Under the pieces are notes generated by a model that did no database searches, was not told where the DNA came from, and saw only the letters and a list, made by a program, of their open reading frames with translations. DNA of 64,000 nt from Urechis unicinctus. Its lineage: Eukaryota > Annelida > Polychaeta > Xenopneusta > Urechidae. This document shows, piece by piece, positions 1,032 to 63,930 of this stretch (its first letter is position 1; each line of letters begins with the position of its first letter). The stretch lies in NCBI GenBank assembly GCA_034190875.2, contig CM067348.1, positions 9,681,080 to 9,745,079 on the forward strand, given 5' to 3'. The position numbers and the translations under genes were made by a program.

Positions 1032-2416
1032 AAACGAGTATTTATGGACCTAGGCAAAAACCGGCAAGCACTGTTCAGGGCGCCGACCTCTCGGAATATG
1101 CCTTAAAAACCTATGTATCTATTGGTGACTCACAAAAAATAAGTGCCGTAGGGGACACAATGGAAGGGGATCTTAATATGGATGGCAACATGATCACGGG
1201 ACTTCCTACGATAGGCCTTCCATCCTCTGGAGGACAAGCAATGTCATACCAAAACACAATAGATCTGGTAACTACCGCAGCCAATTCACTTGTTAGTAGA
1301 GAAGGTGATGGTATGTACGGAGTCCTTGAAATGGGAGATAATAAAATCATTCAGTTGGGAGACCCAATATCGCCTAAAGATGCTGCTAATAAAAAGTATG
1401 TTAATGCACAACACAGACAGCATCGCAGGGAGTTGAGAGAACACATAAACTCCCAAACGAAACATCTCATTACTATTTGGGCAGAAGCAAGTGGCCCCCT
1501 TCGGACAGGATATGAGTGGTCGTTTGGCCATGGGGCCAGGGGTCGAACCTCTCAAGACACAAGCTGTGGATACACCATATTATCTAATGGTAAGATCATT
1601 CGTATGGGGTTGTCTTCAGGTGTTGGTGCTGATACTGCTGCTATAACAGTCGTTCCTGTTATTAATGGAATGAATCAAGCGGTAGGAATAAGTAAGCCTG
1701 CTGACCAACGGTCTGTTGTAATATCTTTAGAACAGCCTTTACAGCTGGAAGAAGGCAACGTTATTAACTTTTATACAACCACACAAAACAGAGGGGCGAC
1801 TTGGTCTGTAGCTTCACTCCTAATTGAATTTGATATACAGACTTATGTATACAAAGACAGTATGAAACAACAACCAACGACTGCACCGTTAAATCTGGAG
1901 CCTCCTCCATGTGATCTGGGGCACTCCTATCGGCTGAATGAGATCAGTCTTAAGAAGCAATACCTTGAGAAAGAAATTGAAAAATATGGTGCTATGTACA
2001 AAAAATATAGGTGTGCAGTAAACTCTGTGGACGCTGTAGACACTGCTTTAGTTGCTGTGGGTATGTGTCTTGGCGCAAGTGGTGCAGGTGTAATGTCTAC
2101 AATAGTTGCCATTCCTATTGCCACAGTGTTGGGTGCTACTGGAGCCGCTTGTGGGCTACTTGTAATTGCTGTAAAATTCATCAGTAGGCGGCTGACCATT
2201 AAGTTAAAAAAGCATGACAAGATCCGCATTCTCGCTCAGAGCAAATTGAATACCATTGCTGACATTGTATCGGCGGCGCTTGAAGATGGGTATATCTCAG
2301 ATGATGAGTTTAAGCTCGTTTCGGTCGAGATCATGAAATATAGTCAAATGAAAAGTGACATTAAAGCAAAATGTTTGAAAGCGGCAGAATCGCCCCCTAG
2401 ACCTGCTAAGGTATGA
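1022..2416 (+). CDS. Fibre-like protein with C-terminal hydrophobic domain (virus-like element part)
   Basis: A 464-residue open frame. The N-terminal third holds two copies of a phage-tail-fibre-like pattern: GDTMEGDLNMDGNMITGLP (about residues 43-61) and GDGMYGVLEMGDNKI followed by DAANKKYV (about residues 95-127). The motif N-I-x-x-L-x-x-P with D-A-x-N-K-x-Y-V is common in trimeric tail or fibre proteins and in proteins of invertebrate virus-like elements. A beta-rich middle follows, then a hydrophobic C-terminal part (about residues 340-385, two likely membrane passes rich in Gly/Ala/Val) and a charged helical tail. Host attachment or a membrane-associated virion role is likely but inferred. 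No introns. Confidence 0.5.
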   Translation: MSIKTSIYGPRQKPASTVQGADLSEYALKTYVSIGDSQKISAVGDTMEGDLNMDGNMITGLPTIGLPSSGGQAMSYQNTIDLVTTAANSLVSREGDGMYGVLEMGDNKIIQLGDPISPKDAANKKYVNAQHRQHRRELREHINSQTKHLITIWAEASGPLRTGYEWSFGHGARGRTSQDTSCGYTILSNGKIIRMGLSSGVGADTAAITVVPVINGMNQAVGISKPADQRSVVISLEQPLQLEEGNVINFYTTTQNRGATWSVASLLIEFDIQTYVYKDSMKQQPTTAPLNLEPPPCDLGHSYRLNEISLKKQYLEKEIEKYGAMYKKYRCAVNSVDAVDTALVAVGMCLGASGAGVMSTIVAIPIATVLGATGAACGLLVIAVKFISRRLTIKLKKHDKIRILAQSKLNTIADIVSAALEDGYISDDEFKLVSVEIMKYSQMKSDIKAKCLKAAESPPRPAKV

Positions 2417-2444
2417 CCCTGACAGTCCATTTGAAGAGTGGGGG

Positions 2445-3387
2445 TTGCTAGATATAATGGAGGCGGCGATAAAATCTTTCTGCAACGATCATACTGGAGT
2501 CAAACAAAATACGGACCAGTGGGAGACCACGAGGAAGGGCTGCGTTGGAGGAAGTGACTACTCCGCTATCATAGGGCAAAACTACTTCAGCAGCTATAGC
2601 AAGAAGCTGACAGAAAAAACTAGCAACGAGGGTGTTCGCTTTAGCGCACCCTGCCTCTGGGGTACGACTTTTGAGGAGGTTGCAATTGCGGTATTGGAGA
2701 AGGTGTACGACACCAAGGTCTACGGAAATAATATCTATATTGAGGGCGGCGCGACGGCCTACTTTCCGGATGGCTTTTGTGTGCTCCCAATCCGGCAGGC
2801 TGGAGTGGATGCTGTCTGTCTGGGGCATCCTGAGGAGGTTGTGCTGCTCGAGATAAAGTGCCCCTACACTCGGAGTCCTGGGAGGGTGATTCCGAATATG
2901 TTTAAGCCTCAGGTTCTGTTGGGGTTGCACCACAGTCCGGTGGCGACCATCGGGGTGTTTGTCGACTGCGTTTTCAGGTTGTGCTCCTTTGAGGACCTGG
3001 GGAGAGCTGAGGCGTATAACCAGGTGTATCACAAGGATCAGAAGAAGTATAAGGAGACGGTGGCTTGGGGGGTGGGCGGGGGTGGAGGGGCTTGAAGACG
3101 GCGACTATAGTGCGAACGGGAGGTTTAATAGTTGCCTGGGCTTGGAACAAGAGCATCACGGTCCTTGGTTGGGAAGACCGAGTGGGACCACAGAGAGGCC
3201 GACGGGGGCTTTCTACTGTTGGAAGCTCTTTACGATGAGATTGATAACCGCTCGTCCCGATCCCGACTTTATCGAGAAGAACGACGCTAAGGTTGCCCAG
3301 TTTATACAGGACCTCAACCGCGTGAAAAATGGAACTTACAGCGATGGTCGCAGATATTTATCACTCAGTGACCTCTATGGTGACTAA
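2445..3387 (+). other. YqaJ-like viral recombinase/exonuclease region (virus-like element part)
   Basis: The frame opening at 2445 shows the YqaJ/lambda-exonuclease fold signature: GCVGGSDYSAIIGQN near the N-terminus, CLWGTTFEEVAI (helix with catalytic Glu), a YFPDGF Asp-bearing strand, and the metal-binding LLEIKCPY (E-x-K), followed by KPQVLLGLHHSP. This family processes double-stranded DNA ends for annealing-type recombination in phages and eukaryotic DNA viruses. The active-site pattern is directly visible, so this is the most secure call in the block. The rest of the region to 3387 keeps related coding character. It lies directly downstream of the fibre-like gene on the same strand. Confidence 0.65.
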
Positions 3388-5485: not shown

Positions 5486-9230
<3,745 letters not shown>

Positions 9231-16453: not shown

Positions 16454-37348
<20,895 letters not shown>

Positions 37349-47700: not shown

Positions 47701-50700
47701 TCATTCACTCACTCACTCACTCCCAAAACAGCCACAATCCCCTTTCATTATACACTAAGACACAACATGATTAAACCTACTGGTTTTTCCTGAGGTAGCG
47801 GTTCCAGGTCCTCAGGGGGGAGTGGAGGGGGTTCGAGGAAAAAGCTGGTGGGTTTCTTCACAGTATGTGTATGATACAACAGCAGTCTAACACACAACAC
47901 ACAATTATTGGGATAGAGATATTGAGATCATCAATTTATACAAAGGAAGATTAATCATAACAAAAGTAAAATCTTAAACAAGAAATATTGCACTTGAATC
48001 TTACACAGAGGGTTAAATAGACAACAAAAATGCATTGAATATAGAGTAATTTAAAATAATAAAGTCAGCCCTGATATAGAACAGGTCACACTGTACAACT
48101 TACCTGTGTTCCTCCTCATATTTGAGTGGTTTACGTTCACTGCGTACAGCACCAAACCAGGCGAGACTGAGGGGGGCCAAGTTCTTCTGCCCCTCGATCA
48201 TCTCCCAAGGACTCACTTTCTGTTTGTTACAGATCTGTACACCCTGTAGACAACATTGTGTAAGATGGAAATTTCTTAAAAGTGAAATATTCCATGTGAA
48301 CGATATGTGCTTTTGCTCCACAACTCCTGATCCACACAACTCCTCCCAGACTGATCAACATAACTCCTCCCACACTGATCCACACAACTCCTCCCACACT
48401 GATCCACACAACTCCTCCCACATTGATCCACACAACTCCTCCAACACTGATCCACACAACTCCTCCCACACTGATCCACACAGCTCCTCCACACTGATCC
48501 ACAACTCCTCCCACACTGATCCACACAACTAATCCCACACTGATCCACACAACTCCTCCCACACTGATCCACACAACTCCTCCCACACTGATCCACACAA
48601 CTCCTCCCACACTGATCCACACAACTCCTCCCACACTGATCCACACAACTCCTCCAACACTGATCCACACAACTCCTCCAACACTGATCCACACAACTCC
48701 TTCCATACTGATCCACACAACTCCTCCCACATTAAACTCTAAATTTCCTTCCACATTAACATACACAACTCCTCCTACATTGAATTCAACAATTCCTTCC
48801 ACACTGATTTACACAACTCCTCCCACTTTATCAACACAACTCCTTCCATATTGATCTCAATATTTCCTATCCCACAGCTCTTGTTTCAAATGAAGCTACT
48901 CACTGATCCACTACAGCTAATTCTTGTGCAGGGTGACAATGATGAAAAAGAATGCCTTTACTTATTAAAGCCACAAAACACAACAGACTTAATACTGTGA
49001 TCCTACAATACACAACAGACTTAATACTGTGATCCTACAAAACACAACAGACTTAATACTGTGATCCTACAAAACACAACAGACTTAATACTGTGATCCT
49101 ACAAAACACAACAGACTTAATACTGTGATCCTACAATACACAACAGACTTAATACTGTGATCCTACAATACACAACAGACTTAATACTGTGATCCTACAA
49201 TACACAACAGACTTAATACTGTGATCCTACAATACACAACAGACTTAATACTGTGATCCTGTAAACATCATCATCATCTACAGTGCCCATCACCTACCAG
49301 CCTGCGTTCGTCTGCCTCTGGACCTCGATTCTTGCCCTCAGCCAGTGAATGAGGCTCACATTGAAGCACCTCGCAGTAGAGTTTGGGCAGTGGCAGCAGT
49401 TGTCGCACCTGGTCTATACTGGCCGAGTGCTTCTCCCCCAACTCGCGCTGTCAACACACAGGTATCACTGCGTTAAAAAAATACACACCTATGGGAAAGG
49501 GAGGGGCCTTTCCATATTTTATCAACAAAATTCAATTACCATCCAAGAATTTTAATTCTAGCTCTAATTACAGACCAATAGCATACCTGGATCTGGCATT
49601 TAGGACTGTCAATACATATGATGCTCCGATTTAAAAAAGACAATTTCAGTGTTATTGTAGATCACAGGGGGCACTCTGTAAGACTCTGAATTGCAATTTC
49701 TAAGTAAGACTTCCACTACACACACACATTCAGAGGAAAAGTCTCCCAAAAGTAAAATTCAGTGATAACCGCCGGGTAATTCACCTTGAGTTTGCGGATC
49801 AGGCTGTGGTACAGCGTGTAGGATTTCTTGCTTTCCTCTCCCTTTTCTGAGTTCTCACTCACCAGGGTACCATGGATCAATACAGACAGCATGTCTAAAA
49901 TGACCGTGAAGAGCTCACTACAGAGGAAGAAATAAACTTGATTGAAAAGTTTGATATATTTCCTGGGTGGAGTCATTGAGTGGGTGGAGTCATTGAGTGG
50001 GTGGAGCTTAATAGTGGGTGAAGTTAATATGTGGGCAGAGTAGATGAGTAGATGATGTCATTCATTTTGTAGAGTTAAATAGTGCAAGGAGCCAACATAT
50101 GAAGTGGATGACTGACAGGTTGAATGATTAGCATCATTTAACAGAGAGGTACAATAAAGATGGTATTGATCTCTTTAGCAATGAGGGAATGTTACCTGTT
50201 GTTACTGATGTCCACCACACCATGACTGACCAGCTGCATGAGTAGAGCTGCCCAGTCCTGAACCAGGTTGTTATTCCTCTGAATCGTGTCAAACATCCCA
50301 CCAACCTGGTACCAGGCAAACACTTTCATTAAGTGCATTGCTGAATGTCTAATTCACATAGAGGGAGCAGCCTCACCAGATAGAATAGACTAACAGTGGG
50401 AGTGACCACACCAGATTAAGTGTAAAAAAGCAGTTCAAAAGCAGAGGGAGTGGACTCACCAAACTGAGTCGCAGCTGGAGAGCTTCCTGCATGAGGCTCT
50501 TGAGGCGATCATCAGTGGGGAGACCGCGGTCCTGCTGCTCCTTCGCGTTACTCACAAACTTTTCAAGTTGCTCTTGTAACGATTTGAGCAGGCACTCCCG
50601 TTGTTCATCCTGGCCTCTCAGACAGGCAAACACCAGACTCAAGAATGGCTGATGTGCCAATAAAGATGTACTGTAAACACAAAACAAAAACAAGATTTAT

Positions 50701-53700: not shown

Positions 53701-56700
53701 CGTAACCACAAGCTCGCAACGGAGGGTGTATGATGACCATGATGATGATGATGATGACATAGTAGATGATGATGGCAATAGTGATAATAAATATGATGAT
53801 GACAATTATAATGATGATGATGACTATTAAGATCATCATTAATATATGCTTTGATCTCCGAGGAAAGAAGGAAATAGCGCTAACCCGCCAATCATGGCCA
53901 GGTCCATGTCCATATCCATTCCATCATCCAGACTGCTCAGCATGGAACTGATGATGTCATCACTCTTTTCCTTCTTCATTGAAGAGCTACTGGAGCCTCT
54001 GGCATTGCAACTGTCTCCTGAAATAACATTACATGTGGCAAATGAACACCAGGTCAAAACGCTGAAAACTTACATCTATCAGATTGCTAAGCGAATCCCA
54101 GAAGAATGAATATTATTCAGGAATGAGTCCCAGATCAGTCCAGCCCAGATGTTATAACAGTTCACATTTTGTTTGTTGTTGGGCTAATCATTCTAATTAA
54201 CGACTTCAACGACGTAATTTTCCGTCATGAAAAGATAAACCAACAACTATCATATGGCGGTCAGATTTTTGCCTTAAGAACCTGTACGGGGTTGAAAAAT
54301 ATGGTCAAATCTATGTTGAATCTTTGGTAAGGGAATATGTACTGTTACTCACCCAGCATCAGAATAGCTTTCAGCACTGCCACAACAGCTCCAACGGTGA
54401 TGCTGTTACGTGCCGCTTCCAGCAGATGTCTATCACAAGATGACTTAAGCACCATCGCGTTTGAGCTGATCAGAGATGCAGCGGGGAGTGTGGGAGATGT
54501 CTGGAAGAGCCGCAGTAAGAGATGACAAGTTAGCCGGGCCCCTGGCTCAGCGTCCGCTTCACCACCAGTACCAGCTAAACATCAAATAGAGTGAGCACAA
54601 AGTGAGACAATGCAATACATTAATGGTTGAAAGGCATTTTATGGTCAATGTATTGTTCAACATCACTGCTTATAGCTACATAAAGTTGCCAGAAGGCAGA
54701 CACTCACTGGATGGGCAGGCCAGCAGCAGGGAATGGAGGGCTACATGTTTGACGAGGTCTTCTAGCGTGAAGCAATGTCTGGCCACCAATACTGCTGTGA
54801 ATACGGCCAGGTTGTCATGGATTGACAAGTCTGATGACTGACAAACAATGCGATCATCAATGAAAATGTGTGAAGATCGTTAAGTGTGATGTGTACATGG
54901 TTTCTGTGTGTAGGAGTCACTGATTGAGCGGAGATCATGTTTAAGAGTATATTGAGTAAATGGTTACCTGATTGAATAAGTGGGTGGAGCTAATGAGTCT
55001 TATAGCAGGTGGAGCCACTAAGTGGGTTGTGTTGCAGAGTAGGTGGAGCAAATGAGTGGATAGATTAAGTGGGTGGGGTCATTAAGTGGGTGGAGTCATT
55101 AAGGGTAAGAGTAACATGTAAAACAGTATTAGTAATAAATCCCAAAAAACTAACAACTTTTCTTATTAGGAATAAACAATTTGGTTAAATGCAGTACAAC
55201 TCACATCATGAGTTGTAAGAACATCAATGAAACCACAGCCGTGATTGGACGACCAGCAGAGGGCTTTCAATACTCCCAGCCAATCAGAGCTGAGGATATT
55301 ACAACAGGCTGTGATATTGGCACAGACAATGGATACCTCATTCACTCTGAAAAGCAAATCACAATAATTTTGATATCAATATACCAATAGCTAAAATTTT
55401 GTGAGATATTTTGCTGTAAGTGATATCATTCTTGAATAATAACCCTGAACAATTGTGAAATTTGACTGATATCCTCAATAAGATGGTAGGATAGTGACAG
55501 CAGTCTTGAATCCTAACTTTAATTAAACAAGTACTCATCTTATAACTCATAGGAATCTTGAATTAGATCAAAGTTAATACTATAGCAAAATCAGAATGGA
55601 CTATTGAAATGACTGGTAGCCATCTTGAAATCACAAATTCGACACTTGAAAACGATTTTGTATGATTCAATGTTAACTTAAATGAAAAGGAGATAACATT
55701 AACGTTAACTCAGAATTCACTGAATAACTCTTACCGTTCTGGTGTTCCAGAGAGACACACCTCTCGTATAGCATTACACACCAACTTATACCGCTGTGCA
55801 ACTGAATCATTCAGTTCTTTGATCAGCTGAGGGTCTAGTTTCAATCTACAAACCACAACATGAAAATTCCGTTTTAATAGAAATCATAGTATGGCTATTA
55901 ACCCATTTGTCAAATAATGGCTGATGGCCAAATACCATGTTTATTTTTGCGACAGGAAAAGTAGCATTTCATTCAAAGTCATTGATTCTTTGGAGTTAAT
56001 GTCATTGTAATAAAAACACAGGGTTTATTTGCCGGTTTTCTGCCAGTGTAGCACTTACTTGGGGTCCTGCAGGTATTTGATCATGAAGCCGGGGTCCCAT
56101 GTCTGGTTGCAGGCGGATGGGGTTATTCTAGGATACAAGGTGTTCTGTACCTTAGTGACCACAGTCCCCCATGTATCATTGTACTTCATCTGTCGCAAAG
56201 AGAAAAAAAAAACACTGATGGAAGTTTTTGAGGGGCATTTTAAGACTCAAGTGCCTGTGGGTACCTGACTGTGTCAGGTTTGGGGTTGAACAGAGGACAA
56301 TGTGAAACTGATTTTAGGGGAAGTCAAACTCAATTAGGAGCCAGTAAATATCTGAATGATATTTTGGTGTAAGTATCAAGATGATATGTCTGCCTAGTTG
56401 ACCAGTAACAGCATGAAATGACTTACCCTGAGGAAGTAGCATTGAGTATAGAGCTCGTAGCGGTATGCTAGAATAACACGCTCAGCTGATGTACAGTCGG
56501 AGGGGTTACACACATGCTTCACCACCTTACAGAGACTGCAAATACAACACATGTTAAAAGTATAACCATTGATCAATATAACCACCATTTAACCACCACA
56601 CAAATATAAACACATGCATGTTTAACCATTTTAATATAACCACTCTATAACCACCATATTCAATCAACAATTTCCTAGAACCTATCCTTGATAACATATA

Positions 56701-59700
56701 TATAATGGTTTATCTTATGGTATTGTACCCATATCAATAGAATTGGATGTAAATCGGTGGTGAAGAGTGCCAAATACCATTACCTCACTGTAGCAACGAA
56801 TAACATTTTAACCCTTACCTTTCGAACACATCTGCAGTATGCTCCTGACAGACCAGTAGGTAGGCGTGGTATTTGCGCAGCACTGCAACCAGATACAGAC
56901 AGACGCTGGTGGAGTATACCCCGGCCAGACTGGACATCTTCTGCTGTAGCTGAGTCTCTACCTCCGGCAATTCCCTTGACAACTGTACAATCAAAACATT
57001 ATATGAATCACGTATAAAGGTCAGTGTACATCTTGGCTAATCAATATCAATGTCTGATGCTTTACCAACTAAGATGAGAGAGAGAGAAGTACAGACTTCT
57101 GAAGGACAATAATAATTTAATTAAACCCTGATGATGCTATTTGCATCAGAAATTATCATTTAAAATACACGGTAGTTGTAAACCACTGACATTGCTTTTG
57201 ATCAAAATCAATTGGTACAAAATATCTGGCTGTCAAAAGCAAGTGATAAGGGAAGGTAATTTATTTAAGTGAAACTGATACTAAATATGATCTGACCTTA
57301 AAGATCACCTACAACCTAATTGATTATTACAAAAAGGCAAACAGTTTAGTCAGCAAAAAGTAACTAGTAAGTAATGACCCCATGTCTGTAAAATAAATCA
57401 TGTTACTCGTGTGTCTATGACATGATGGGTCAACTTTCAAACAATGTACTCACCTTCAAGACAAAGTCAACCAGGCCATTGATATTATTACAATACTCCA
57501 TGAGATCCAAGAGGAATGATATATGATCGACAGGAGGCAAGTAATTAGCATTCCCTGTCGCAAATCCGTTAACCATCTCCACCACCGACGTGCGCACGGT
57601 CGCCGTGATAGCATGTTGGTCGTAATACGACAGCTTCTGGAATTTAGCGAACGTGCCTTCCAAGCTGCCCAATCCGCTCCCTGCTACAGACGAATCCAGG
57701 GCGTCCTTTTCCTTCTTACGCTTCATCTTGGTAGTGTCCCCACTACTGGTGTCAATGCTGTTCTTCTTGCCATACAGCTTCATGATCTCCTTGGTGATTT
57801 TCTTAACGACGTGTCGGGCTTCATCCCGAGCTTTCCCCACCCCGAACAAGACGACCATGCGCTGGTTACACTCGTGACTGCTCAGTTCGTCTTGAGGTAT
57901 CGGGAAATGCGTCGCGTATATAAGATGGCGCGATGATCCTTTCGTGGGGCTCGAGGCTTGCGGTAAAAGATGCCCAGACGATATGGGTGTGTGGGCTTTC
58001 CCGGGCGTGTGAGCCATGCCTGGTGTATGCCCCCCACCGCCAGGGGTCGTGGCCATCCCAGGGGTGTGGGCAGCCCCTGGTGTCAGTGGGGCCCCTGGTG
58101 TTCTGGCAGCACCTGGGGTGTGGGGTGCACCTGGGGTACGTGCCATGCCCGGAGTGTGGGCCTGGGCGGGGGTGGGGACTTGGCCCGGGGTAGCGGCTGA
58201 CATGGGCTGTTCTGACTTGACGGAGGCTGGGGACAGAAGAGGTAATTGACATTACCCACAATTCAATCATATAGAGACAGGATAAGTCCCACAATGCTTA
58301 CACAGGCCAATGCTACAATGAGTACAGATACAAATTATAACCATTTGTTGTGGATGACCCCAGTTGTAAACTACCACATGAATAACTAACAAGTATTGCC
58401 AAATGACTAAATGAAGCACTTGTCATCAGGGAGACAGATAAGTGAATTGCTCCACCCGCTAAATACACACCAACAAAATGTTTTAGTTTAAAGGCTAGGG
58501 AGAAAGAGCTTTTGAAAACTCAAGATAACAAACAACTATTTAGTTGAACATCCAATTTAAACTTGATCAAAGCAGAGAACATGGTTATATTTAAAATTCC
58601 ACCTGGACCAGGTGGTAATATTTAACATCTCAACAGGACCAGGTGGTTATATTAAACATTGCACCCAGACCAGGTGGTTATATTTAACATCTTGACAGGA
58701 CCAGGTGGCTATATTTAAAATCTCTCCTGGACCAGGTGGTTATATTTAACATTCAACCTGGACCAGGTGGTTATATTTTACATTCCACCTGGACCAGGTG
58801 GTTATATTTAACATCTTGACAGGACCAGGTGGTTACAAATACAACCTCACCTGGGCCATCAGGACTTGACTTTGGCTCATCTTTCAGCCCAAATATCTCA
58901 AAGCCAGAATCCAGAACTTGATTTTCTAACTCTTGCTTCATCTCCTGAAAGTAAATAGATACATCTTGATTTCAAGTTTCAAAAAGCATTTTCAGTTAGT
59001 AACAGAAAACACAAACTTCTCCATTTGCACATTATATTTATTTTCATATTTATTATGAGAATGATTTGAAATGCTTGAAACAACACTCACTTCCTGCTTG
59101 ATAGCGTCACTTTTGACACTCGATAAGTCCACAATCTCATGGTTGGCAACTGCAGCAACAGGTTGCACCAACGGAGCCTGCATCAGGTTGCCATGGGAGA
59201 TGAGCGAGCACATGTACGCATCATGCGAGAAAACATCGTAGGCGACCAGCTCACACATAAGACAGATGAGGTTTGCGAACGCTGTCCTGTTTTCAATGCT
59301 TGGGTTCATATCTGGTGACCAAAACAATTATAACGTGATACATTTTAATAATCAACATGCAATTTCTGTGATTAAGAATTTTATGTGTTAGGTTATATGT
59401 CCAGTCCTAGATATTAGTTGAAAAGCATTGGATGGAATCTGGGAAACTCCAAAACAGTTATATAAAAAGAAACACAGAGAAGTTACATCTGGGAATCAGT
59501 GAGAAGTGGGGAATTAAGGCATACAAAATTCTAAGGGATCAGGTAGGTATCTGTCAGGCTCATTCAACAAATGCACATATATTTTAAGTAAACAATCGAA
59601 ATATATAAACATATATATGAAAAATTGGTGATACAATGACTGCATATAAAACTTGCAGCAAAAGGAAGCGAGCAATAAATTGGCAGCCAGATTAAGGGTA

Positions 59701-62700
59701 ACATTGCCCACATGACACCACAGTGGGTGAACTAATGAGGCGATCACAGCAACAGGAGTCATATCTTACCTAAGACAGGTGCGTTGGTGTCAAGGAAATT
59801 CTTGAGGAGGTTCTGGAAGGGCATTGAGGAGGTGGATCCGTGGACGTCAGAGGTCACCGAGTCCCTCTCATCCCCCATCTCGTCCGAGGCAAACTTCTAC
59901 ACACACCAGATACGGAGGAGGATGGATAAAGATGATGCTACTTATGATGCAATTATTTAATATGAGTTGTCAATAAAACAAAGTGAAACATCAATTTTTG
60001 TCCCTCAGTGTTTCAACACATATATGGAGGATCGATCCTTTGAGCACTGATAATCTCTCTAAACAGTCAACTACTCGTTGCATGACAAGCACATTCACCT
60101 CAGCAGCCATGTCATTCTGGCGTTTCTCCAGCAGTTTAGCAACAACCACAGCCCGATGTACCCCCGTACGCTGGGTACTTACTGCCCATTCACACAGTAA
60201 CTTCACAATAGGCTCATCCCCGACACAAACCTACATGACACAAAATCTTAACATCTTGACGGAAACTCTATGGTTGCAATGAGCTGCAACATTCAACATT
60301 TTTCTCCAAAGCTGAATATAATGTCATAGAGCAATCGAGCATACATCAAACAATACTAACAAGTTAGAGAACAGAATTAATAGATCACTTGTAACAATTC
60401 AAATTTCAGTGTTTTTCAAGCTAAAAATGCATGTCTTATCAGTCTGAACTATTGTTTTCATGATAATTAGGTAAAAAAAAACCTAACATTTAAAATACAC
60501 AAAAATTTTTAATGAGGGAATTTTAAGCACACATATAGTCCTAAACATGATAAGAATGATGAGATGTAGGAAGGCTATGCTACACTCACGTCTTCCTCTT
60601 TAGACTGGCGCCCACCAAATACTTTGTGGTACAGGGTGTCCAGAGAGGACTGGGGCTCCACCTTATCAAACACATGTCTATCCAGAGCCTCCAACACATC
60701 CAGAACATGGCCAATCACAGTGCCTGACACAAACATATAATACAAGGGTGACCAATCACAGAGCATGACACAAACATATCGACCTGTGGAGTCAAATCAT
60801 GGTTTCTGACACAAATATTCATGCTATAGGAAGTAAAACACATTTATGATCAGGGCTCGCTGCCATGATTTGCACTTCTTAAATAGTAACAGAGGATCAT
60901 GCAGCTCGTTGCTGCCAACACTTGAGGTGAATATAGGTAACATAAGGCTGGCTGCCAAAAAAGGTCATTCTTCTTCTGAAGAATGACTACATTTATTGAA
61001 CTCACAACTATGACTTTAACCAACATGGCATAGTTGTTTAGTACACAAATTCTTAAAGTATAATAATTTCAACTATGTCCAAAAGAATAGATTTGACAAT
61101 AGTGACATAGTTGAGTAAGAACATACATATGTTATGAGTATCTAAATATAACGACTATGTCACTAGACAATATACACTTAAAAACTCTTGACATAATATA
61201 ACAAAGTTGCATACATAAAATTATACTTCCTATATGTGTTATAATATACAAGAAACATATGTAAAATATGACAGCCATTTATATTTAACAATATTATACT
61301 GATACAATTTGTAGAAAGACATGGATGATACAGTGCATGGCAGCAAGGTGGGGGCAAAAACAGCCCAGCTGAATAAAAAGGTGGAGAGTGGGGTGGTGGT
61401 GGGCGAATCGAGACAAAAATTGCGTAGCGTACCCTTTGCTTTGAAAAGCAAAAGAGGAGGCTCAAATGAAAGACCGAGTTTTATAACCTCCGAGGGAGGG
61501 CGCTGGTGATTGCGACCGCGTGCTGTTCAACCGCGAACCTGAGGTAAAGGGATTAGTTGACCCATTAAGGCCGAGTGGAGGCGGACGGTGCCGAGTAAGT
61601 TACATGGAGGCAAAAAGATTAGGTTCGCCATTCTCATAAATCGCGTTATGATCGCAGGTCATAACTGGTCAATACAACATGGCCAATCAAATTCCCTGAT
61701 ACAAACACACATCACACCCTGCTTTTTTTTTAACTTCACCAACTGGTCATCACATCAAAAAAACCTCTTGGAGAAGCAGAGATAAATACAGTAAACATGA
61801 TGTAATATGACTGAATTACCAACCTGTAGTTGACTGCTGACAGCGATCTGACGACCATCTCATCTCAGCTGCTCTGCTACGGGCAATGATCTGATTCTCA
61901 GCGGCGATCAACTGGATGCGAATCTACACAGAAACACCCACAAGTGGAATTTACTTTACTGATCAATACATAGATTATAACTAGTCAAGAGAACCACCAG
62001 ATGACAAGAAGAACGAGAAATAACTCAACCACACCAGAGATTGGATAACGCTCCATCACAGATCATCATCATGAATAAAGAGGAATTGGTAGAAAAATTT
62101 CATCTTCGTTTTTAAAAAAGATCCAAGAGATTGTTATATGACCCACATATTCCTATATGGGAATGAGATGGGTCAGAGATGCTGACCTGGTGGTTGTCGA
62201 GCCCCTGCGGCATCGGGAGTGAGGATGGGGCCACTGGTAGCAGATCGAGAGGAGAGTCACAGAGAACAGAGTTGGTCTTACTTTCCCCGAGATTGTGCCA
62301 TACCAACGCCCCCGGGCAGCGTACGGTGATGGTCTGAAGCAAACACACAAGCAGTACATATACTTCCCGATTATGATGTTGCTTTTAACGATGAGGGGAA
62401 TGATGATGAATGATTGCAATGCAGAGCCCCATAAATGCCATTGTTCACTTATCACAAATCAGTTTCTCCCCTGGGCAGTGGGAAGGGAACCAATTTGATA
62501 AGTATAAGGCTTTAATAGCACACCAACACTAGAGTGTCATACGGTACCTGGGAAACCTATTGGGAAACCATTGAGCAACTACATCACATTTCACATCCAT
62601 ACAACTGACAATTCTTTACATTGCCAGAACTAAACTGTAGATTACCACTGAGACCCACATCCATACAGCGTGACAATTGTTGACATTGCCAGAACTAAAC

Positions 62701-63930
62701 TGTAGAAAACCACTGAGACCCACATCCATACAGCGTGACAATTGTTTACATTGCCAGAACTAACCTGTAGAAAACCACTGAGACCCACATCCATACAGCG
62801 TGACAATTGTTGACATTGCCAGAACTAACCTGTAGAAAAACCACTAAGACCCACATCCATACAGCGTGACAATTGTTGACATTGCCAGAACTAACCTGTA
62901 GAAAACCACTGAGACCCACATCCATACAGCGTGACAGTTGTTGACATTGCCAGAACTAACCTGTAGAATACCACTGAGACCCACATCCATACAACGTGAC
63001 AATTGTTGACATTGCCAGAACTAACCTGTAGAATACCACTGAGACTCATAATGAGGCTACGATGCTGAGGACAGTTGTAATACTCAGCAAACAGCGTGGT
63101 TGACCCGCCACTGTTGCTGTTGGCTGAGGTAGAAGGCGCTCCCGTCGGGGTGTTGGTGGACACGTGCTGCTCACCAGACGTGCTGCAGAGTCATGACTTA
63201 AGTTAATGGTTCAATAGCAAGTTAACAAGCTGTCAACAGGGAAACTTTCGGCTATGGAAAAATGATCAATAGCAAGTCAATATATTCATAAGGATGTTAC
63301 ATCTTTCTCCCTTTTTTGACCATTGAATATTTTCAGTCCACTGTCATGGTAGAGAAAATATGCTTAGTATATCTGATGGCTATATTGTCTTATGTGAAAC
63401 AAAGCAAAATCTATAACAAGTTTAGATGTGATCTACTCACCCAGTAGACATGGCTGATTGGTTCATCGAGGCAATGCTACTTGATTCAAAGTAAAACTGA
63501 GATAGTTTCTGAGCGCAGAAATGTGCCAGTTTCCTTGACAACAGCTGAGAGGCTACATAATCTGATGTGTACTGTTCACACATGTAGGAAAATTAAAATA
63601 TAAAATATGAAATAATGTGCAAAAAAGAACATCTCATTAACTTATTTTCCAGCTCCACCTCGTTAACTCACCTTTAGCACCTGACTTACATGGTTACCTA
63701 TGAACATCTCCTTAACTCACCTTGAGCGTCTGACTAACATGGTTACCTATGATCATTTCATTAACACACCTTGAACACCTGACTAACATGGTTACCTATG
63801 AAGATTTCGTTCAACTCACCTTGAGCACCTGAGCTAGAATGAGTTTAAGTACTGTATCATCAGTAATCTTCATCTTCTCCAGCAACTCCAGCATCCAGTT
63901 TAGAAACTCATGTCTGTCTAGCAAGCCCTC
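44757..63930 (-). CDS. MED12: Mediator complex subunit 12 (C-terminal 1970 residues; 5' end outside the window)
   Basis: Kinase-module subunit linking CDK8/cyclin C to Mediator; nuclear. 35 exons, high to low: 63930-63820, 63571-63441, 63182-63026, 62333-62187, 61923-61824, 60723-60590, 60230-60099, 59896-59770, 59311-59091, 58944-58851, 58226-57454, 56982-56819, 56535-56427, 56189-56059, 55845-55735, 55346-55205, 54837-54708, 54574-54353, 54017-53885, 52947-52779, 52578-52459, 52230-52159, 51833-51721, 51127-50960, 50670-50460, 50305-50196, 49917-49785, 49447-49298, 48243-48104, 47886-47781, 47461-47321, 47142-47001, 46541-46221, 45853-45637, 45087-44757. Total length divides by three and phase is continuous. 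Landmarks: [22 protein letters not shown] (LCEWAV domain), [51 protein letters not shown] (PQL domain). The tail is Gln/Gly/Met-rich, ending YQQY, with a much shorter poly-Q than vertebrates. The N-terminal CDK8-activating segment is off the window. Confidence 0.97.
47620..47725. repeat. CA/CACT simple repeat in a MED12 intron
   Basis: CA-rich tracts followed by ACTC tetranucleotide repeats between exons 47886-47781 and 47461-47321. Simple sequence only. Confidence 0.9.
48325..48840. repeat. 24-bp minisatellite in a MED12 intron
   Basis: Over 20 copies of a 24-bp unit (CTCCTCCCACACTGATCCAC then ACAA) with decay towards 48840. Because the unit is a multiple of three, long repetitive frames appear on both strands (for example GGVVWISV repeats on the minus strand); they have no start context or homologue and lie inside an intron. 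Confidence 0.95.
48975..49262. repeat. 32-bp minisatellite in the same MED12 intron
   Basis: Nine near-identical copies of a 32-bp unit (AACAGACTTAATACTGTGAT then CCTACAATACAC). The near identity suggests recent expansion. On the minus strand each unit contains TTGTAGGATCACAG, acceptor-like but pyrimidine-poor. It follows the exon ending at 49298. Confidence 0.95.
50755..50846. repeat. 31-bp direct repeat, three copies, MED12 intron
   Basis: TGTCATGATATTAATCATAC followed by ATATATACAC-type ends is repeated three times between exons 51127-50960 and 50670-50460. Confidence 0.85.
52975..53336. repeat. GAT-rich simple sequence and 14-bp repeats in a MED12 intron
   Basis: Degenerate (GAT)n at 52975-53130 is followed by four copies of AGCCCACTTTGCCA at 53281-53336. 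A second (GAT)n tract lies at 53735-53850 in the same intron. Poly-Asp, poly-Ser and poly-Met frames over these are artefacts. Confidence 0.85.
58590..58860 (-). repeat. 30-bp minisatellite overlapping a MED12 exon end
   Basis: On the minus strand the exon ending at 58851 reads GGCCCAG then gtgaggttg, TATTTGTAACCACCTGG. The intron continues with seven or eight units of about 30 bp, GGTCCAGGTTGAATGTTAAA then TATAACCACCT. The exon end plus donor looks like the first, diverged unit of the array. Confidence 0.65.
62630..63055 (-). repeat. Seven-copy minisatellite of a MED12 exon end and donor
   Basis: The true exon ends GTCTCAGTGGTATTCTACAG with donor gttagt at 63026. A 65-bp unit holding the last 20 or so exon bases, the donor and the following intron (TTCTGGCAATGTCAACAATT) recurs downstream with exon-end copies near 62961, 62896, 62831, 62767, 62701 and 62635. 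All keep a readable exon end and donor-like GTTAGT or close to it. Confidence 0.92.
63666..63850 (-). repeat. Four-copy minisatellite of another MED12 exon end and donor
   Basis: The true exon end is GCTCAGGTGCTCAAG with donor gtgagtt at 63820. A 49-bp unit repeats this with small changes at about 63771, 63721 and 63671 (GTCAGGTGTTCAAG, GTCAGACGCTCAAG, GTCAGGTGCTAAAG), two of them followed by an intact GTGAGTT. Confidence 0.88.

Follow-up and report, generated by a model that had tools for sequence, protein, structure and literature searches.

What does it mean for a gene when the end of one of its exons, together with the adjoining 5' splice site, is part of a minisatellite, and how may such an arrangement arise? 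This question is raised by a stretch of 64,000 nucleotides (nt) of DNA from Urechis unicinctus (assembly GCA_034190875.2, contig CM067348.1, positions 9,681,080 to 9,745,079 of the forward strand), referred to here as the window, in which a tandem array of 65 base pair (bp) units lies across a donor site of the gene MED12. The reading that we favor, to which we assign a probability of roughly 0.8, is that this is a minisatellite of the type described as mirages in amphioxus, namely, a chance tandem duplication at an exon end that became amplified and is tolerated as the first donor is the one used.

The anatomy of the array was established first by its delimitation with Tandem Repeats Finder (TRF), which places it at 62592..63045 on the minus strand, with a period of 65, 7.0 copies, 95% matches and a score of 801. 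In each unit, the last 20 nt of the exon are followed by the donor, the intronic part being 45 nt long. The initial annotation had correctly given seven copies and described the unit as an exon end plus its 5' splice site, but its boundaries, 62630..63055, were slightly off, and its intron part was given as about 40 nt. The first intron base of copies 1 to 7 falls at 63025, 62960, 62895, 62829, 62764, 62699 and 62634, with one additional T in copy 4 accounting for a step of 66 nt. Copies 1 to 5 share an identical CAG/GTTAGT, the slash marking the exon-intron boundary, and copies 6 (62694..62699) and 7 (62629..62634) read CAG/TTTAGT, with TT for GT. GT is thus kept in five of the seven copies, and only four decoy donors, not six as had been claimed, lie beyond the true donor GTTAGT of copy 1 (63020..63025), which is supported by the unit listing and by homologue alignments. 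These decoys are found in copy 2 (62955..62960, +65 nt), whose 9-mer is identical to that of the true donor, copy 3 (62890..62895, +130 nt), copy 4 (62824..62829, +196 nt) and copy 5 (62759..62764, +261 nt). Once the extra T of copy 4 is removed, any two of copies 1 to 6 show 0-2 mismatches in the 20 nt of exon and 0-2 in the 45 nt of intron, and copy 7, at the end of the array, is the most diverged, with an indel accounting for part of its differences. Near-identical copies 1 to 6 followed by a diverged copy 7 are what is commonly seen when a tandem array has been homogenised.

The assignment of the gene to MED12 was confirmed by two lines of evidence. First, the sole match among solved structures to the exon at 57430-58251 is the MED12 chain 8tq2_C (E=6.2e-42). 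Second, MED12 proteins head the list of homologues obtained with a crude query built from the window, with Capitella teleta at the top (58% identity, 1964 bits) followed by Lineus (1673 bits) among the best 120 of 402 matches. Capitella, an annelid, is also the top match for NALCN, which the window encodes on its plus strand (71%, 2270 bits, among the best 120 of 980). An amphioxus source of the DNA, considered at first, was rejected on the basis of these matches. All gene models used here are derived from homology, and the 73 donors and 73 acceptors on which later comparisons are based were curated by hand from alignments; the position of several exon ends is uncertain, those at 59090, 24680, 24834 and 28507 among them. 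At the array itself, the coding exon spans 63026..63182 (minus strand), with positions 63026-63045 forming the exonic part of copy 1, and both its donor, 63025, and its acceptor are recovered in seven of eight spliced alignments to MED12 homologues. The next exon, 62187..62333 (minus strand), has its acceptor at 62333 in seven and its donor in six of the eight. A protein alignment with seven homologues has zero inserted columns at the 63026/62333 join, and the Q preceding this join and the C six residues further are invariant. Homologous proteins thus fit a messenger RNA (mRNA) spliced at copy 1, to which the array would contribute no coding sequence beyond its first 20 nt.

How such an array may have come about, and why it persists, can be proposed from these features. 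A local tandem duplication would have started by chance 20 nt inside the exon and ended 45 nt into the following intron; the copy number would then have risen to about seven through slippage or unequal exchange, with the copies becoming homogenised. We infer that, in the living animal, the 5'-most donor, joined to the real exon, is spliced and the extra copies are removed with the intron, so that the array would be neutral: it would be tolerated because the upstream-most donor is used. The array corresponds to the amphioxus mirages, minisatellite-like units of 10-160 bp that lie across either exon/intron boundary, and that keep their AG/GT signals in many, although not all, copies, according to passages of two reports (PMC3087553, PMC3902484). 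The published cases are the globins BflGb6 and BflGb9, Adh3, PGBD5 and TnC, the last two from PMC3902484. As in those cases, the MED12 units are in tandem across an exon-intron boundary, their length falls within the reported range (65, and 49, 31, 45 and 43 in four further arrays of the window), the GT survives in most copies (five of seven), and the copies at the boundary fall outside homogenisation. On all features that can be compared with what these passages describe, the mirages and the MED12 array agree; the difference is that the DNA analyzed here is annelid-like, whereas the amphioxus cases are from a cephalochordate. The array would thus be a repeat of an established kind, met in another branch of animals, rather than a new mechanism. 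No report of annelid splice-boundary minisatellites was found among the open-licence papers listed; passages on an earthworm metallothionein intron describe minisatellite-sized repeats, and do not state that these span a splice site (PMC12783039).

A first alternative is that the array regulates MED12: use of its decoy donors would lower expression by yielding mRNAs with a shifted frame or a premature stop. Use of copies 2 to 5 is computed to insert 65, 130, 196 or 261 nt. As had been anticipated, these are multiples of about 65 nt that mostly change the frame: the first three do so, and in the 130, 196 and 261 products a stop is reached before the joined exons end, the last of them being in frame, as a multiple of three, with its stop inside the array. 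All four predicted products would hence shift the frame or hit a stop, and each decoy is an exact match to the true donor, both of which speak for regulation. Yet amphioxus mirages are said, in the passages cited above (PMC3087553, PMC3902484), not to disturb regular splicing, and the predicted folding of the array RNA does not surpass that of its shuffles (z=0.74), which gives no sign of selected structure. We thus hold a regulatory role to be extremely improbable. The same folding result served to rule out an RNA structure that hides the decoys.

The array is not alone in the window. Other cases had been mentioned by the initial annotation, and four further donors indeed lie inside arrays, at 63819, 58850, 18834 and 26406. 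First, a second MED12 array, with a period of 49 and 3.5 copies, spans the true donor 63819 (63659..63832, minus strand); it was detected by TRF and, with a score of 35, is the weakest of the five. Second, a third MED12 array, with a period of 31 and about eight copies, spans the true donor 58850 (58582..58852, minus strand), although the TRF call stops at 58835 and leaves a gap of 15 nt to the donor. Third, NALCN holds two such arrays on the plus strand, one across the true donor 18834 (18828..18997, period 45, 3.8 copies) and one across the true donor 26406 (26403..26785, period 43, 8.8 copies), the latter with a TRF start at 26408, 2 nt beyond the donor. Acceptors are also affected, by two-copy duplications: one with a shift of 41 across MED12 acceptor 60723 (60714..60812, minus strand), and one with a shift of 108 across NALCN acceptor 21616 (21503..21636, plus strand).

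Minisatellites elsewhere in MED12 and its surroundings deserve mention in their own right. The array at 48973-49260 consists of nine 32-bp copies with 98% matches and starts 37 nt past donor 49297, without reaching the exon; it is a recent and purely intronic array. Two other arrays, 49964-50060 and 55056-55103, lie about 5 kilobases (kb) apart and have 17-bp units, TGGGTGGAGTCATTGAG and GTGGAGACATTAAGTGG, which by eye differ at 2 of 17 positions after rotation; perhaps they derive from one dispersed element.

A second alternative for the 65-bp array arises from the sequence preceding its decoys, each of which ends in AG. Copies 2 to 5 could represent zero-length exons (AG/GT), such that splicing from copy 1 to the AG of a copy would rebuild the exon end and the donor. 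The four copies would then be serial zero-length recursive splice sites, the array would compensate for any use of its own acceptors, and the same mRNA would result by every route, with the intron leaving in steps. To score acceptors we used position weights from the window's own 73 acceptors, whose median is 9.1. Copies 2, 3, 4 and 5 score 7.12, 9.22, 13.07 and 9.22, so that copies 3 to 5 are at or above the median, and the AG of copy 4 outscores the true acceptor (11.2) and is the highest-scoring acceptor in the intron. Copies 3 to 5 are also strong donors, their score of 10.11 being at the 88th percentile of the 73 donors and, among the 68 that lie outside arrays, at the 79th. By sequence score, then, an acceptor abuts a donor in copies 3 to 5, the arrangement that characterizes the ratchet points of recursive splicing (PMC8605326), and this juxtaposition of acceptor-like and donor sequences is what MED12 copies 2 to 5 have in common with them. 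However, the acceptor quality depends on one short T-rich tract, and the other arrays do not repeat the pattern: AGs before the downstream GTs of the MED12 period-49 and NALCN period-45 arrays score 0.6-5.9, and in the MED12 period-31 and NALCN period-43 arrays no listed GT is preceded by AG. Moreover, the copies here are serial and near-identical, the likeness is one of sequence, and the intron (63025-62334) is short, about 690 nt, as opposed to the long introns reported for ratchet points (PMC8605326), a feature that is typical of such points although not strictly defining. Taken together, we consider it very unlikely that the copies act in this way.

The presence of five donor arrays in one window bears on the mutational origin proposed above, namely, a near-random tandem duplication of which exon-end arrays would be the remainder after selection against coding changes. 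A third alternative is that a mutational process targeting 5' splice sites, involving R-loops or pausing in co-transcriptional splicing, seeds tandem duplications there; it is favored by the contrast between five multi-copy arrays at donors and two two-copy duplications at acceptors. We compared both possibilities in a boundary-anchored similarity test, which looks for a tandem copy across the boundary at thresholds of 30 and 36, with all positions from 16.4 to 64 kb as background. Donor 22692, which belongs to an exon duplication in NALCN, was left out of the counts. At threshold 30, 5 of the 73 donors (6.8%) are in tandem repeats, as compared with 7.2% of all positions, and at threshold 36 the figures are 4 of 73 and 6.6%; boundary-spanning duplications affect 2 of the 73 acceptors. 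In MED12 and NALCN together, 1.5% of the coding positions fall in duplicated tracts, as do 13.7% of the non-coding ones. The rate at donors equals the background and is lower than in non-coding sequence.

Random placement of the duplicated tracts leads in the same direction under two of three nulls. Of 60 tracts, 57 were placed, several of them being one-position spurs; the three with a shift of at least 300, including the NALCN exon pair 22692/23254, were dropped. The five donors observed in this test include the spur at 49297 and miss 63819, whose score of 35 falls under the cut-off of 36. Unconstrained placement gives 6.8 expected donors (P(>=5)=0.89), and allowing a coding overlap of at most one unit gives 2.84 (P=0.15). 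Acceptors, when placement is unconstrained, are fewer than expected, 3 against 6.8 (P=0.04), a count that includes 48243, which is absent from the boundary-anchored test. An earlier placement test based on the TRF edges of 20 of the 22 gene-body minisatellites, which this tract-based test replaced, had found three donors, with 1.54 expected, and no acceptors; it required an exonic overlap of 5 nt or more, which left out 26406 and 58850, and its P was 0.016 for five or more donors and 0.058 for four or more.

Four observations weigh against chance duplication with first-donor use as a full account. First, under the strictest null, with a coding overlap of at most 0.35 unit, 1.57 donors are expected against the five observed (P=0.019), the only null to yield an excess, and a small one. 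Second, duplication coverage is 9.6% exactly at donors and 5.5-6.8% at +5 to +40, the former figure including two NALCN exon-duplication donors and one spur. Third, the exonic part is short in each of the five arrays (about 5-20 nt, by eye), which could mean that duplication boundaries cluster near the donor. Fourth, GTs scoring at least as high as the true donor number 4, 2 and 0 downstream in the MED12 arrays of period 65, 49 and 31, and 2 and 3 in the NALCN arrays of period 45 and 43. The downstream GTs of the period-31 array are all below the 25th percentile of real donors, and one of the two equally strong GTs of the period-45 array has no correspondence to the donor. For reference, the mean over 66 other introns is 0.086 such strong sites per 100 nt. 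Since in four of the five arrays the true donor is equalled in strength by two or more GTs, donor strength fails to explain why the first would be used. With regard to the first of these points, the window was chosen because a reader had noticed its arrays, which makes even the smallest P weak. A repeat-rich genome subject to purifying selection would be expected to yield about this number of donor arrays, any excess being modest at most. A recurring process at 5' splice sites, as suggested by the initial annotation, is not supported in this window; the outcome that it had itself named as telling against the idea, namely, arrays over exon ends no commoner than background, is what was obtained when applied within the window.

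As R-loop-linked duplication at donors had been put forward, we also examined the sense-strand G skew. Four of the five donor arrays are G-skewed (0.28, 0.36, 0.53 and 0.54; the fifth, 0.03), the first 400 nt of other introns having a skew of 0.02 (standard deviation 0.22), and the gene-body minisatellites, 22 in all, have an average skew of 0.16, compared with 0.01 for random segments (P=0.002). Nevertheless, the donor arrays are not more skewed than other intron arrays (means 0.37 and 0.21, P=0.89), and a sign test on all 22 gene-body minisatellites is not significant (14/22 positive, P=0.29). A count of 15/19 positive from an early list was discarded, as it became 14/22 once no array was dropped. 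Any link to transcription is thus not specific to splice sites, and we regard the targeting of donors by a mutational process as unlikely, chance duplication filtered by selection remaining the explanation that we prefer.

Other known systems share some features with the array. In Drosophila, tandem duplication of proto-splice sites has been argued to be a route to introns in passages of PMC2891723. In known tandem duplications that carry AG/GT, as here, the sequence between two copies can be spliced out, but there a new intron arises inside an exon, while here an existing intron is lengthened. For the stwintrons of Lipomyces, PMC7138796 proposes that the donor element of an intron already present was duplicated, a point of likeness, yet it reports a nested unit of introns whose excision takes two steps, and none is shown here. 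Passages of PMC3087553 propose mirages as raw material for intron gain, and the donor-spanning arrays may be regarded as possible raw material of the same kind.

With five arrays across donors in a single annelid-like window, mirages would seem not to be a peculiarity of lancelets, and they can be expected in other minisatellite-rich genomes. The MED12 array also amounts to a test of donor choice made by nature, in which the spliceosome must take the first of five identical donors. Classic experiments with duplicated donors are reported to have often favored the donor nearest to the acceptor, which would make this choice more telling. A minisatellite is also reported, by the title of a paper cited in PMC2572611, to supply serial splice donors to a transcript, reportedly of a human gene.

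The window contains other features. The NALCN exons at 22557-22691 and 23116-23253 (plus strand) are tandem homologues, with the pore-region motif QEGW in one and QKGW in the other. The two are probably used in a mutually exclusive manner, each providing a different selectivity filter; among the best 120 of 980 NALCN matches is a Lymnaea protein named LNALCN-EEEE. By eye, the NALCN frame at 24675-24850 looks broken or misassembled near HKIPSE/RMRDSF when compared with Capitella. An open reading frame at 2379-3095 (plus strand) matches PF09588, the domain of YqaJ-like viral recombinases (E=8.3e-11), and the long open frame beside it, 1013-2413, has no Pfam match; both are possibly part of a virus-derived or mobile element. 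Finally, the open reading frame at 5950-6771 (plus strand) encodes an IgGFc_binding domain (PF17517, E=1.5e-20).

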